Part shown: positions 58,687-63,495 of the stretch, piece by piece
Position numbering within the stretch: position 1 is the stretch's first letter
How the letters are laid out: each line of letters opens with the position of its first letter
Source of the DNA: Gammaproteobacteria bacterium
Lineage (GTDB): Bacteria > Pseudomonadota > Gammaproteobacteria > Steroidobacterales > GCA-2729495
NCBI GenBank assembly: GCA_016874095.1
Contig: VGVH01000004.1
Span: 1 to 64,000, forward strand
Length of the DNA stretch: 64,000 nucleotides
Direction of reading: 5' to 3'
Translations under genes and position numbers: made by a program
Notes under the pieces: model-generated
Seen by the model: only the letters and a program-made list of their open reading frames with translations
Told to the model about the DNA's origin: nothing
The model's database searches: none

Positions 58687-60965
58687 AGCGGGGGGCCAGC
58701 CAGGGCCTCGTCGAAGAACCTCACCACCGTCCGCAGCGCATGCAGCCCGCTCACCGGCTCGCGGGTGAGCCCGTGCTTGCCGCCGGGGTAGGTCATCAAG
58801 TCAAAGGGCTTGCCGAGGGACTGCAACTTCGCGAACAAGGCCGTGCTGTGCGTGAAGAGCACGTTGTCATCGGCCATCCCGTGGATCACGAGAAGTTTCC
58901 CTTTCAGCCGATCCGCCCAGCTGAGCACGTCGCCCGCGGCGTATCCAGGCGCGTTGTCCTGCGGCGTGCCCATGTAGCGCTCGGTGTAGTGGGTGTCATA
59001 GAGACGCCAGTCCGTGACCGGCGCACCTGAGACGGCCGCCGCGAAATGATCAGGCGCCTGCAGGATGCACATGAGGGCCATGTAGCCGCCGTAGCTCCAG
59101 CCGAATACGCCGATGCGCGCCGGATCGACGTAGGGCAGCGTGCGCAGGTACTCGACGCCACGGACCTGGTCGGCCACTTCCACACTGCCCATCCGCCGGT
59201 GCAGGGCTGACTCGAAGGCACGACCGCGGAAGCCCGTGCCGCGATTGTCGAGCGAGAACACCACATAGCCGCGCTGAGCCAGGAACTGGTGGAAGGCGGC
59301 GTCGTTGGCGCGCGGGCTGTTGCCCCAGGCGTTGCCGACCTCCTGGGACTCCGGTCCGCCGTATACGTCGACGATCACCGGATACCGCCGGCCAGGCTCG
59401 AGCACCTTCGGCCTGACCAGCTTCCAGTGCAGGGTCTGCCCGTCTTCTGCCGTGAGCGTGCCGAACTCGGTTGGTGAATGCAGGTCCCGGTAACGCGTGT
59501 AGGGATGGTCAGCATCGAGGCGGTTCTCGACCATGACGGCAATCTGCCGACCGGTCGCGTCGCGCAGGGTGATGGATGGTGGTGTCTCGGCCGTGGACCG
59601 GGTATCGACGAAGTACCTGGCGTTTTCCGACATGGCAATGCGGTGCCAACCCGCGCCTGTCGTGATACGCGCAACCGCGCCGCCCGACAGCGGCACGCGA
59701 TAGAGATGCCGCTCGATCGGCGAGTCCCGGTTGGCGGTGAAGTAGACCTGCCCGCGCTGCTCGTCGACACCTGCTACGCCGCGACCGCGCCCCGTCGCCA
59801 CGACCATCCACTCGCCCGAGGTCAGCGGCCTCACGAGCGTGCCGTCGTTTTCGTAAAGGTAAAGGTGCCGGAATCCGCTGCGATCCGAAGCCCAGATGAA
59901 CCGCCGTGACCGCTCGAGGAAGACCAGATCGTTGTGCAGGTTGACCCAGGTGTCGGAGGTCTCGGAAATCAGCGTGCGCGTGCTGCCGCTCACGGGATCC
60001 GCGGCCAGCAGGTCGAGCTTCCTCTGGTCGCGGCTCTGGCGCTGGACGGCGAGCTGGCGGGAGTCGGGGAACCAGTCGACACGGGCGAGATATATGTCCG
60101 TCTCCGCGCCAAGGTCGACCCGCACCGGCTCGCCGCCATCGAGCGGCACGACGCGGAGTTCGACCAGCGCATTCGCCCGGCCAGCGGCCGGGTAGCGCTG
60201 CGTGATCACGTCGGTGCGGTCGGCCTGTATCTCGAAGCGCCTGACTTCGTCGACCGGTGACTCGTCGACAACGGTGTAGGCGATGTAGCGTTCGTCCGGC
60301 GACCACCAGTAGCCCGTGTCGCGGTTCATTTCCTCCTGCGCGATGAACTCGGCCACCGCGTAACTGACGACACCGGCCGCAGGCGGTGTCACGCGCCGCT
60401 CCTGGTCGTTGCCCAGATTGCGGACCCAGAGTGCGCCGTCGCGCAGGTAGCTCACGTAATTGCCGCGGGGCGAGTAACGCGCGTCAGCCTCTGCGCCCTC
60501 CGTCGCAGTCAGGCGGCGGACCGCGCTCGCCGCGGGCCTGCGCAGGTCGTAGGCCCAGAGGTCGCCCGACAGCGGCACCAGCAACCGCTTCCCGTCCTCC
60601 GAGAATTCGTACTCGACGATGCCGGAAAACGCCGCAGTGCGCTGGCGCTCGCGGCGCGCGGCTTCCTCGGCGGAGATGCGCTCCTCCGCCACGAGCGCAG
60701 CGGAGTCGACCAGCAGGCGGTGGCGTCGCCGGGCGATGTCATAGGCCCAGAGGTCGAACTGCCCGGCATTCGACGCCTTGCCGCGCTGGTAGACCACGAG
60801 CTGCGCGTCGGGCGAGAACTGCAGGCCGCGCAACGAGGCGCCCGAGAGATCGGGACTTTCGAAAAGCCGTTCGAGGGTCAATGGCTCGGCCGCAGCGGCG
60901 AACGGAATCAGCGCGGCCAGGAGCATGGCGTGACAGTGACCGGAACACGCTGGCATAGTCGGCAT
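58659..60965 (-). CDS. Dipeptidyl peptidase IV-type serine peptidase (S9B), exported
   Basis: A 768-residue periplasmic peptidase with an N-terminal signal peptide (AMLLAALIPFAAAAEP). The first 500 residues form an eight-bladed propeller with the substrate-anchoring double Glu in VAEFIAQEEMNRDTGYWWSPDE. The C-terminal alpha/beta hydrolase has the nucleophile GWSYGGYM (S624), the acid in HGMADDNV (D699) and the His in GGKHGL (H731). It removes X-Pro or X-Ala dipeptides from peptide N-termini. Another in-frame ATG at 60926 is possible. Together with proline iminopeptidase it points to use of proline-rich peptides. The gene is divergent from the aldo/keto reductase gene. Confidence 0.94.
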   Translation of the reverse strand: MPTMPACSGHCHAMLLAALIPFAAAAEPLTLERLFESPDLSGASLRGLQFSPDAQLVVYQRGKASNAGQFDLWAYDIARRRHRLLVDSAALVAEERISAEEAARRERQRTAAFSGIVEYEFSEDGKRLLVPLSGDLWAYDLRRPAASAVRRLTATEGAEADARYSPRGNYVSYLRDGALWVRNLGNDQERRVTPPAAGVVSYAVAEFIAQEEMNRDTGYWWSPDERYIAYTVVDESPVDEVRRFEIQADRTDVITQRYPAAGRANALVELRVVPLDGGEPVRVDLGAETDIYLARVDWFPDSRQLAVQRQSRDQRKLDLLAADPVSGSTRTLISETSDTWVNLHNDLVFLERSRRFIWASDRSGFRHLYLYENDGTLVRPLTSGEWMVVATGRGRGVAGVDEQRGQVYFTANRDSPIERHLYRVPLSGGAVARITTGAGWHRIAMSENARYFVDTRSTAETPPSITLRDATGRQIAVMVENRLDADHPYTRYRDLHSPTEFGTLTAEDGQTLHWKLVRPKVLEPGRRYPVIVDVYGGPESQEVGNAWGNSPRANDAAFHQFLAQRGYVVFSLDNRGTGFRGRAFESALHRRMGSVEVADQVRGVEYLRTLPYVDPARIGVFGWSYGGYMALMCILQAPDHFAAAVSGAPVTDWRLYDTHYTERYMGTPQDNAPGYAAGDVLSWADRLKGKLLVIHGMADDNVLFTHSTALFAKLQSLGKPFDLMTYPGGKHGLTREPVSGLHALRTVVRFFDEALAGPPLQAASSTAP

Positions 60966-60998
60966 GATCGCAGGCTGAACCCGCCACCATTGTCCCAG

Positions 60999-61895
60999 AT
61001 GACGACGAGAAGGGAACTGATCCTCGCAGCCGCCGGCACCGCGCTCGGAGTGCCGGCGCTGGCCGCGACCGCGGCGCCGATCCTGCGGAAGGTGCCATAC
61101 AGCGGCGAGGCCGTGCCGGTGATCGGGCTGGGCACATCGCGCACTTTCGACGTCGATCCCGCCTCCCCGGCATTCCAGCCGCTGGTCGGCGTGATGGAGG
61201 AATTTTTTGCCGGCGGCGGGCGGCTGATCGACTCATCGCCGATGTACGGTCGGGCGGAAGGCGTCACCGGGGCGCTGCTCGGCAAGACGAGGCGGCAAGG
61301 TGCCGCCGTCGTAGCGACCAAGGTATGGACGGACGGTCGCGACGCCGGGATCGAGCAGATGAACATGTCGTTCGCGCGGCTGGGCGTCACGCGTATGGAC
61401 CTGATGCAGGTCCACAATCTCAAGGATTGGCGCACGCACCTGCCGGTGCTGCGGGAGTGGAAGGCCGCCGGCAAGATCCGTTACCTCGGGATCACCACCT
61501 CGTTTGCGCCCCAGTACGCCGATTTCGCAGCGGTGATGCGCGCCGAGCAGCTCGATTTCGTGCAGCTCAACTACAGCATCGGCGAACGTGAAGCCGAGAA
61601 GGTGCTGTTGCCGCTCGCACGCGACCGCGGCATCGCGGTGCTGGTCAACCGCCCCTTCATGCGGGCGGAGCTTTTCCGCCGCGTTGCGGGGCGCACCCTG
61701 CCCGGCTGGGCGCGGGACATCGGCTGCGAGAGCTGGGGCCAGGCCATGCTCAAGTGGATCGTCGCGCACCCCGTCGTCACCTGCGTCATCCCGGCATCGG
61801 CCAAGGCGGCCAACATGCGCGACAACATGCGGGCAGGCTTCGGGGAACTGCCCGACGAGGCATTGCGCGCGCGCATCGCCGCCGACGTCGGCTGA
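60999..61895 (+). CDS. Aldo/keto reductase family protein with Tat-like signal
   Basis: A 298-residue AKR barrel protein. Its N-terminus MTTRRELILAAAGTALGVPALAATAAP resembles a twin-arginine export signal. The catalytic tetrad is visible: D78, Y83 (IDSSPMYGRAE), K108 (VVATKVWTDG) and H139 (LMQVHNLKDW). The barrel end FGELPDEALRARI is standard. Exported AKRs are rare but known. If truly exported by Tat it would carry NADPH with it or have another role. It converges with the RluA-MTase gene with 4 bp between the stop codons. Confidence 0.88.
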   Translation: MTTRRELILAAAGTALGVPALAATAAPILRKVPYSGEAVPVIGLGTSRTFDVDPASPAFQPLVGVMEEFFAGGGRLIDSSPMYGRAEGVTGALLGKTRRQGAAVVATKVWTDGRDAGIEQMNMSFARLGVTRMDLMQVHNLKDWRTHLPVLREWKAAGKIRYLGITTSFAPQYADFAAVMRAEQLDFVQLNYSIGEREAEKVLLPLARDRGIAVLVNRPFMRAELFRRVAGRTLPGWARDIGCESWGQAMLKWIVAHPVVTCVIPASAKAANMRDNMRAGFGELPDEALRARIAADVG

Positions 61896-61899
61896 GGAC

Positions 61900-63495
61900 T
61901 CAGCCGAGCCGCAGCCACAGCCCCTTGAGATAGGCCGGTTCGTCCCGCGAGATCGGAAAGTCCGGCGGCTGCGCTGCCCAGTACTGGCACTCGATGCGCC
62001 GCCCGGCCGCATGCACGGCTTCCCGGACGACATCGATGAAGCCTGCCGGCTCGAGCCGCGCGGCATTGCTCGCAGCGAACAGGACGCCGCCAGGCGCAAG
62101 CACGGCCAGCGCAGCCGAGACGAGCCGCCCGTAGTCGGACTCCGCGCGGAACACGCCATGCTCCTTCGACTGCGAGAAGGTCGGCGGGTCGAGCAGGACG
62201 ATGTCGAAACGCCGGCCCTTCTTCGCGAGCCGCCGCAGCCAGTCGAAAGCGTCGCCGTAGATGAAGTCGTGGCCTCCGGCATCGAGCCCGTTCAAGGTGA
62301 AATTGCGCCGGCCCCACTCGAGGTACTTCTTCGACAGGTCGAGACTGGTAACGGTGGCACCGGCCAGTGCCGCAGCCACGGAGAATGCACAGGTGTACGC
62401 GAAGGTGTTAAGCACCGTACCGCCAGCAATCCCGGGCAACGGAAATTTCGCAGCGACATGACCTGCCAGCAGGCGCCTCCGGTTGTCTCGCTGGTCGAGA
62501 AAAATGCCGACCGAGTAACCCTCTTCGAACGACAACTCGAACTCGATACCGTTTTCGCGCGCCCTGAAGCGCGCCGGGGCCGGCTCGCCCGATACGAGCC
62601 GTGGCGAGGCGTCCTCTGCATCGAGACGCTGCAGATTGCGGGTCAGGGTCTTGTGATAGATGCCGGCGATGCCACTTCCGGCCAACGACTCGAGTCGCGC
62701 GATGTCGCCCGGCCCGGGCAACGCGGCGGACTGGTGCAACAGCCAGCGGTCGAATCGATCGACGCGCGCACCGGGCCAGCCGTCGGCCGCGCCGTGCACC
62801 AACCGCAGCGTGTTGGTCTCGGCCGGATCAGCCAGCGCCGCGCGACGAGCCTGGCCGATGTCGGCGGCAAAATCGGCGGGCAGCTCGAAGCTCACCGGCG
62901 CGTCGATTCCGGGATGGTGGAATGCGAGTCGCTCGGCGTGCAGGCACAGCCGCGGTGCGGGGGCGCCACCGTAGAGGGCGTCGCCGAGCACCGGGAATCC
63001 AAGCGCAGCAGATTGCACGCGGATCTGGTGCGTGCGGCCGGTCACCGGCTCGGCCAGAACCGCGTGCACCTGCGGCGGAAACCCCGGTGGCGGCGGTGTC
63101 GGCGCGAATGCGGTTACCGCCTCGTCACCCTCGTCCGCCGTGGCGACGTACACCTTGCCGCGACGGGCAAGGCATGCGCGGGACTCGATCCGACTGCCGG
63201 GCGGCACGCCCGCAGTCAGCATCCGGTATTGCTTGCGCACCGCACGCGCCTCGAACTGGCGGGCGAGCGAGCGACGCGCCAGTGCCGACTTCGCGAATAC
63301 GAGCAGGCCCGAGGTGTCCTTGTCGAGCCGATGCAGATTCGCAAGCTCCGCCCAACGCGGCTCGCGGTCGCGCAGCCACTCGTAGATGCCCTCGCCGAGG
63401 TAGTCGTCGGGCGCATGCGTGTTCCAGCCCGCCGGCTTCGCGACGATGACGATGTGCTCGTCCTCGTGGAGGACGCAGGGCGGGGAACGGTTCAT
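61900..63495 (-). CDS. Fusion of RluA-type pseudouridine synthase and COG1092 rRNA methyltransferase
   Basis: A 531-residue protein with two recognisable enzymes. The N-terminal 220 residues are an RluA-family pseudouridine synthase without S4 domain: VLHEDEHIVIVAKPAGWNTH, LHRLDKDTSGLLVFAKS (catalytic D58) and PVTGRTHQIRVQ. Residues about 225-531 form a Rossmann methyltransferase of the RlmI/RlmK type (COG1092): YSVGIFLDQRDNRRRL, NTFAYTCAFSVAAALAGA and LLDPPTFSQSKEHGVF. The start at the ATG 63495 is chosen because the upstream track residues lack family similarity. It would install two modifications, probably on 23S rRNA; both active sites look complete. Confidence 0.88.
   Translation of the reverse strand: MNRSPPCVLHEDEHIVIVAKPAGWNTHAPDDYLGEGIYEWLRDREPRWAELANLHRLDKDTSGLLVFAKSALARRSLARQFEARAVRKQYRMLTAGVPPGSRIESRACLARRGKVYVATADEGDEAVTAFAPTPPPPGFPPQVHAVLAEPVTGRTHQIRVQSAALGFPVLGDALYGGAPAPRLCLHAERLAFHHPGIDAPVSFELPADFAADIGQARRAALADPAETNTLRLVHGAADGWPGARVDRFDRWLLHQSAALPGPGDIARLESLAGSGIAGIYHKTLTRNLQRLDAEDASPRLVSGEPAPARFRARENGIEFELSFEEGYSVGIFLDQRDNRRRLLAGHVAAKFPLPGIAGGTVLNTFAYTCAFSVAAALAGATVTSLDLSKKYLEWGRRNFTLNGLDAGGHDFIYGDAFDWLRRLAKKGRRFDIVLLDPPTFSQSKEHGVFRAESDYGRLVSAALAVLAPGGVLFAASNAARLEPAGFIDVVREAVHAAGRRIECQYWAAQPPDFPISRDEPAYLKGLWLRLG

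Follow-up and report, generated by a model that had tools for sequence, protein, structure and literature searches.

A gene near the end of the 64,000-nucleotide stretch of gammaproteobacterial DNA analysed here (hereafter, the window) encodes a pseudouridine synthase and a methyltransferase in a single chain, which raises the question of what these two enzymes do together and whether one of them merely brings the other to RNA. The initial annotation had described the product as an S4-less RluA-type synthase joined to a COG1092 methyltransferase without its usual PUA domain, and had suggested that the synthase may replace the PUA domain as the RNA-binding part, a single binding event then serving both modifications. 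The features considered below are as follows.

61900–63495, minus strand: fusion gene for an RluA-type pseudouridine synthase and a COG1092 (RlmK-like) methyltransferase; 531 aa plus stop, with full-length homologues
62866–63495, minus strand: pseudouridine synthase domain, residues 1–210, S4-less; PF00849, Foldseek match to RluA (2i82)
63307–63333, minus strand: synthase catalytic motif HRLDKDTSG, residues 55–63, with catalytic Asp58; R56, L57, D58, T61 and G63 invariant
61903–62859, minus strand: methyltransferase domain, residues 213–531, PUA-less; PF10672, RlmI/SMU.776/RlmK-like folds
62164–62190, minus strand: motif IV, DPPTFSQSK, residues 436–444; as in RlmK (DPPTFSNSK), unlike RlmI (DPPKFVENK)
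62059–62070, minus strand: motif VI, SNAA, residues 476–479; Asn477 aligns with the catalytic Cys of m5C enzymes

Domain architecture and predicted structure

The reading frame runs without a stop from an ATG at position 63495 and encodes 531 aa. Pfam assigned residues 14–163 to PF00849 (PseudoU_synth_2, 1.3e-21) and residues 286–526 to PF10672 (Methyltrans_SAM, 3.2e-26), and found neither an S4 nor a PUA domain in the 531-aa protein. By contrast, PUA_3 was detected by Pfam in the RlmI-like protein of the same genome (L003, 2.2e-17) and also in the homologue L082. Sequence matches in the PDB part at approximately residue 210, with RluA and RluC at residues 7–209 and SMU.776, RlmI and PH1915 at approximately residues 217–527, and the two halves abut without a long linker. 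A frameshift, a misassembly or a chance reading frame can be dismissed because the same full-length form is present in tens of unrelated assemblies. The intact frame, the Pfam assignments, the PDB split and the independent homologues thus bear out the view of two RNA-modifying enzymes in one chain. The description of the halves was likewise correct: the synthase has the PF00849 match and the RluA fold and no detectable S4 domain, and the methyltransferase has the PF10672 match and no PUA domain found by Pfam. No curated NCBIfam family spans the whole protein, and the window contains no Rfam match.

An AlphaFold2 model built from 25 fusion sequences, all of which match the same families as the window fusion, had a mean pLDDT of 90.7 (at least 50 in every segment) and a pTM of 0.88; the predicted placement of the two halves relative to each other is gauged by pTM alone. 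Foldseek aligned the synthase half with RluA (2i82, TMt 0.82) and the other half with COG1092 methyltransferases, and no solved chain among the matches listed resembled the whole two-domain protein. The neighbouring gene (60720–61895, plus strand) encodes an aldo/keto reductase (PF00248) with an apparent Tat-type leader (TTRRELILAAAG) and is unrelated to the fusion.

Catalytic centres and the chemistry of the methyltransferase

The PF00849 fold and the catalytic Asp in the HRLD motif place the N-terminal half in the RluA family. Among 64 aligned fusions, its residues R56-L57-D58, T61, G63, K88, Y90 and T155-H156-Q157 are invariant. None of the equivalog cut-offs was reached (bits/cut-off: RluA, 88/286; RluC, 82/378; RluD, 68.9/351; TruC, 67.2/328), and in the tree the fusion synthases group on a separate branch (support 100, length 1.34), apart from E. 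coli RluA, RluC, RluD and TruC. E. coli RluA, which makes 23S Ψ746 and tRNA Ψ32, shares the S4-less RluA fold and the HRLDxxTSG centre and is the best structural match among synthases; however, it is unfused and approximately 33% identical to the fusion synthase, which branches separately. The N-terminal half would be a pseudouridine synthase that is active and belongs to a separate subfamily within the RluA family.

A class I SAM fold, a DPP motif and the PF10672 match assign the C-terminal half to the COG1092 methyltransferases, and D386, D436-P437-P438-T439, S441 and N477 are invariant in the same 64 fusions. The annotation had left m5C and m7G as alternative products, which are, to our knowledge, the only ones known for COG1092-type enzymes. 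E. coli RlmI (YccW) makes 23S m5C1962, and the Cys of motif VI is the nucleophile of m5C enzymes. RlmI has the same COG1092/PF10672 core and fold as the fusion methyltransferase, but RlmI-type enzymes carry an N-terminal PUA domain and the motif VI Cys, whereas the fusion has neither. Motif VI reads SCS in E. coli RlmI and in L003, SNN in E. coli RlmK and SNAA in the fusion. Because the invariant Asn477 occupies the position of RlmI's catalytic Cys, m5C chemistry is unlikely, and of the two products it is m7G, the RlmK option, that is favoured.

Alignment with E. coli RlmK and L048 revealed a Cys-less core with DPPTFSxSK and an SxN motif VI, which together with YLxW make up the RlmK-like signature of the fusion methyltransferase. 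The RlmKL model NF008748 gave 130.9 bits over 171 residues, the densest per-residue score among the methyltransferase families, although its cut-off was not reached. The ML tree divides the PUA/RlmI-like enzymes (100/99) from RlmK, the stand-alone Verrucomicrobiota enzymes and the fusions; lacking a true outgroup and with a long RlmK branch, it places RlmK on the fusion side of the split but does not define a rooted clade. That the half makes a 23S m5C, as RlmI or the C2499 enzyme does, would be in line with the best whole-domain NCBIfam score, which belongs to NF033380 (23S m5C2499; 169.5 bits over 318 residues, cut-off 650). We nevertheless regard this as very improbable given Asn477 and the fact that the genome already encodes a PUA-containing RlmI-like protein, L003, with SCSC in motif VI. 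Our best guess from the sequence is guanine-N7 methylation, as in m7G2069, by a C-terminal half that would be a class I methyltransferase of the Cys-less, RlmK-like kind.

The annotation had asked whether one of the two active sites is inactive. No dead centre was found, each being invariant in the 64 fusions, and both halves look catalytically active. Another cysteine, C369 (62389–62391, minus strand) in SAM-motif I (FAYTC), is also invariant (64/64 fusions); E. coli RlmI and RlmK have Gly here, as do some of the stand-alone enzymes from other Verrucomicrobiota.

Distribution of the fusion and loss of the synthase

The search for this domain architecture in other genomes, which had been proposed as a check, recovered the fusion in two phyla. 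A scan of GTDB contigs yielded 28 relatives, mostly full-length fusions from Verrucomicrobia subdivision 3 (Limisphaerales/Pedosphaera) plus a few from Gammaproteobacteria. In the verrucomicrobial order of the Limisphaerales/Pedosphaera type, 108 of 116 genomes had a match at 1e-33, and at least 87 of the 116, counted among the matches listed, had both halves in one frame; in some of the others the match is interrupted by contig ends. Across a phylum-wide sample of 241 genomes, the fusion was found only in the query genome and the methyltransferase alone in 19 others (1e-50). The gammaproteobacterial family of the window has the fusion in 11 of 37 genomes, two of these interrupted by contig ends: 7 of 10 in its own genus, 4 of 5 in a second genus and none in the remaining genera. 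A class-wide sample of Gammaproteobacteria contained it in 1 of 369 genomes, the window's own. From this pattern, we infer that the fusion probably arose in Verrucomicrobiota and was later transferred to a few Gammaproteobacteria. No plasmid matched the fusion at 1e-30, and no phage record covers most of the protein.

No neighbouring gene common to the fusion loci of both phyla was seen. Certain kinds of neighbour recur in some loci. A second COG1092 methyltransferase paralogue, judged to be of the PUA type from its relative L082, lies within approximately 5 kb of the fusion in five loci (L010, L013, L015, L017 and L019). A gene for a CPBP/CAAX-type membrane protease-like protein, identified by eye, lies near the fusion or the solo methyltransferase in nine (L007, L014, L021, L022, L026, L029, L031, L136 and L137), and in several loci it nearly touches the start of the fusion or solo gene.

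Other Verrucomicrobiota possess stand-alone methyltransferases of approximately 290–330 aa, with neither PUA nor synthase, which adjoin the fusion clade in the tree. Those in L149–L159 (38–45% identical, tblastn) have the same core and an Asn-type motif VI but no synthase domain, and are the nearest relatives outside the fusion clade. Within Limisphaerales, methyltransferases without an intact synthase (L030, L130–L137) are interspersed with the fusions in the ML tree, whose starred branches require at least two changes. The N-terminal stretch of L136 matches the fusion-synthase profile (E = 6e-4 at Z = 1000; best shuffled decoy, 9.2) and has lost the catalytic HRLD motif; its sister L137 appears similar by eye and falls below the profile threshold. 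L136 therefore carries a decayed remnant, the methyltransferase having been retained while the synthase decays. Judged by their sequences, several Limisphaerales have lost the synthase and kept the methyltransferase, and no PUA domain was gained. The reverse case, a fusion-type synthase kept without the methyltransferase, was not seen, the sole candidate (G016) stopping at a contig end. Upstream of the L030 methyltransferase, a match containing two stops had suggested another decayed synthase, an idea that was rejected once all three frames had been read.

These solo forms bear directly on the idea that the synthase took the place of the PUA domain and serves mainly as an RNA-binding part that delivers the methyltransferase. 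The missing PUA domain, the RNA binding of the synthase fold in RluA (2i82, matched by Foldseek) and the confident full-length AlphaFold2 model all agree with it, yet we consider it unlikely. Orthologues in other Verrucomicrobiota have neither PUA nor synthase, the solo enzymes of Limisphaerales are maintained once the synthase is lost, with no PUA gained, and the synthase catalytic residues are invariant, which RNA binding alone would not require. Since the methyltransferase occurs with neither domain and survives the loss of the synthase, the synthase did not simply replace the PUA domain, and this part of the annotation was not sustained.

Proposed function and relation to known systems

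Among the host's other RNA-modification genes, RluC (L002), the RlmI-like protein (L003), RluD (L004) and RlmD (L005) were assigned by sequence, by tree position and by adjacent genes, yfiH and maf among them. A search of the host genome gave no match of RlmKL size and neither RluA nor TruC as a stand-alone protein, and a UPF0020 search of it gave marginal matches only. At all candidate sites checked, the base in the host 23S rRNA agrees with that of E. coli, and G2069 and its neighbours are identical, so that none of these sites is excluded. In the window's own genus, the three of ten genomes without the fusion likewise yielded no RlmKL, and the modified site is thus not indispensable. For the same reason, there is no support for the notion that gene exchange within the family has let the fusion substitute for RluA or RlmKL.

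A known precedent for such an arrangement is RlmKL (YcbY), in which the K and L domains, fused in E. coli, make m7G2069 and m2G2445, respectively; the two domains can work as individual enzymes, are separate proteins in other bacteria and cooperate (PMC11194073). The fusion resembles RlmKL in having two rRNA-modifying domains per chain and shares the YLEW, DPPTFSNSK and Asn-type motif VI character of the K half. The partner differs: it is a second methyltransferase, RlmL, in RlmKL, and a pseudouridine synthase (PF00849) in the fusion.

We consider the overall best explanation, held with middling confidence, to be a bifunctional RNA-modifying enzyme with RluA-type and RlmK-like halves. As the enzyme families suggest, rRNA would be the substrate, and G2069 of 23S rRNA in helix 74 would be the prime candidate for methylation. 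Both active sites would probably work on nearby 23S rRNA positions during 50S assembly, in the manner of fused RlmK/RlmL; the m7G chemistry, the site and the coupling of the two reactions are all proposed on these grounds. The methyltransferase would be the older core activity and the synthase a later, dispensable second activity. More tentatively, and with considerable doubt, the fusion may represent an undescribed bifunctional class whose halves, a new RluA subfamily and an RlmK-like enzyme, jointly equip a single spot in the peptidyl-transferase region of the 50S subunit with pseudouridine and m7G, one half being needed for the efficiency of the other.

Because some lineages have lost the synthase, the two activities are not obligatorily coupled. 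The halves may even act on unrelated RNAs, e.g., tRNA U32 and 23S rRNA, with the fusion only fixing stoichiometry or expression. RluA, the closest S4-less structural relative, is annotated for both 23S U746 and tRNA U32, and the synthase has been lost independently of the methyltransferase; still, the one-chain form has long been conserved in most of one order and occurs in a second phylum as well, which suggests a benefit of linkage, and we rate separate substrates as possible but rather doubtful. Far less probable is a hypermodified spot, produced if the methyltransferase acted on the protein's own pseudouridine product or on its direct neighbour. Such a modification would go beyond the m5C and m7G known to us for enzymes of this type, and several lineages keep the methyltransferase in the absence of the synthase, even though the physical linkage and the invariance of both sites would suit it. 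A two-step case of this kind is known in m3Ψ1915, made by RluD and then RlmH (listed in PMC4119055), although RlmH is a SPOUT enzyme. Our preferred reading remains the bifunctional enzyme with RluA-type and RlmK-like halves.

In three loci (L023, L043 and L145) from one genus of the window's family, a gene for a DbpA-like DEAD-box helicase, identified by eye, adjoins the fusion. DbpA-type helicases take part in 50S assembly, and this neighbour is a possible hint at the substrate of the fusion. The same Verrucomicrobia encode a further fusion (L162:1288–3240, plus strand; also L163 and L164), in which an RluA-type synthase with HRLDANTTG is joined to a TrhO-like part comprising UPF0176_N and rhodanese domains (tRNA U34 hydroxylase family).

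No description of the synthase–methyltransferase fusion was found in the papers searched, which were mostly open-access; domain databases may already include the architecture through automatic annotation. The protein is a genuine, conserved and apparently undescribed combination of known enzyme types, which pairs base isomerisation with methylation in one conserved chain. As natural forms with and without the synthase occur in one order, coupling by fusion is testable in matched species. In organisms that lack RlmKL, the fusion is a candidate to supply the missing RlmK function.
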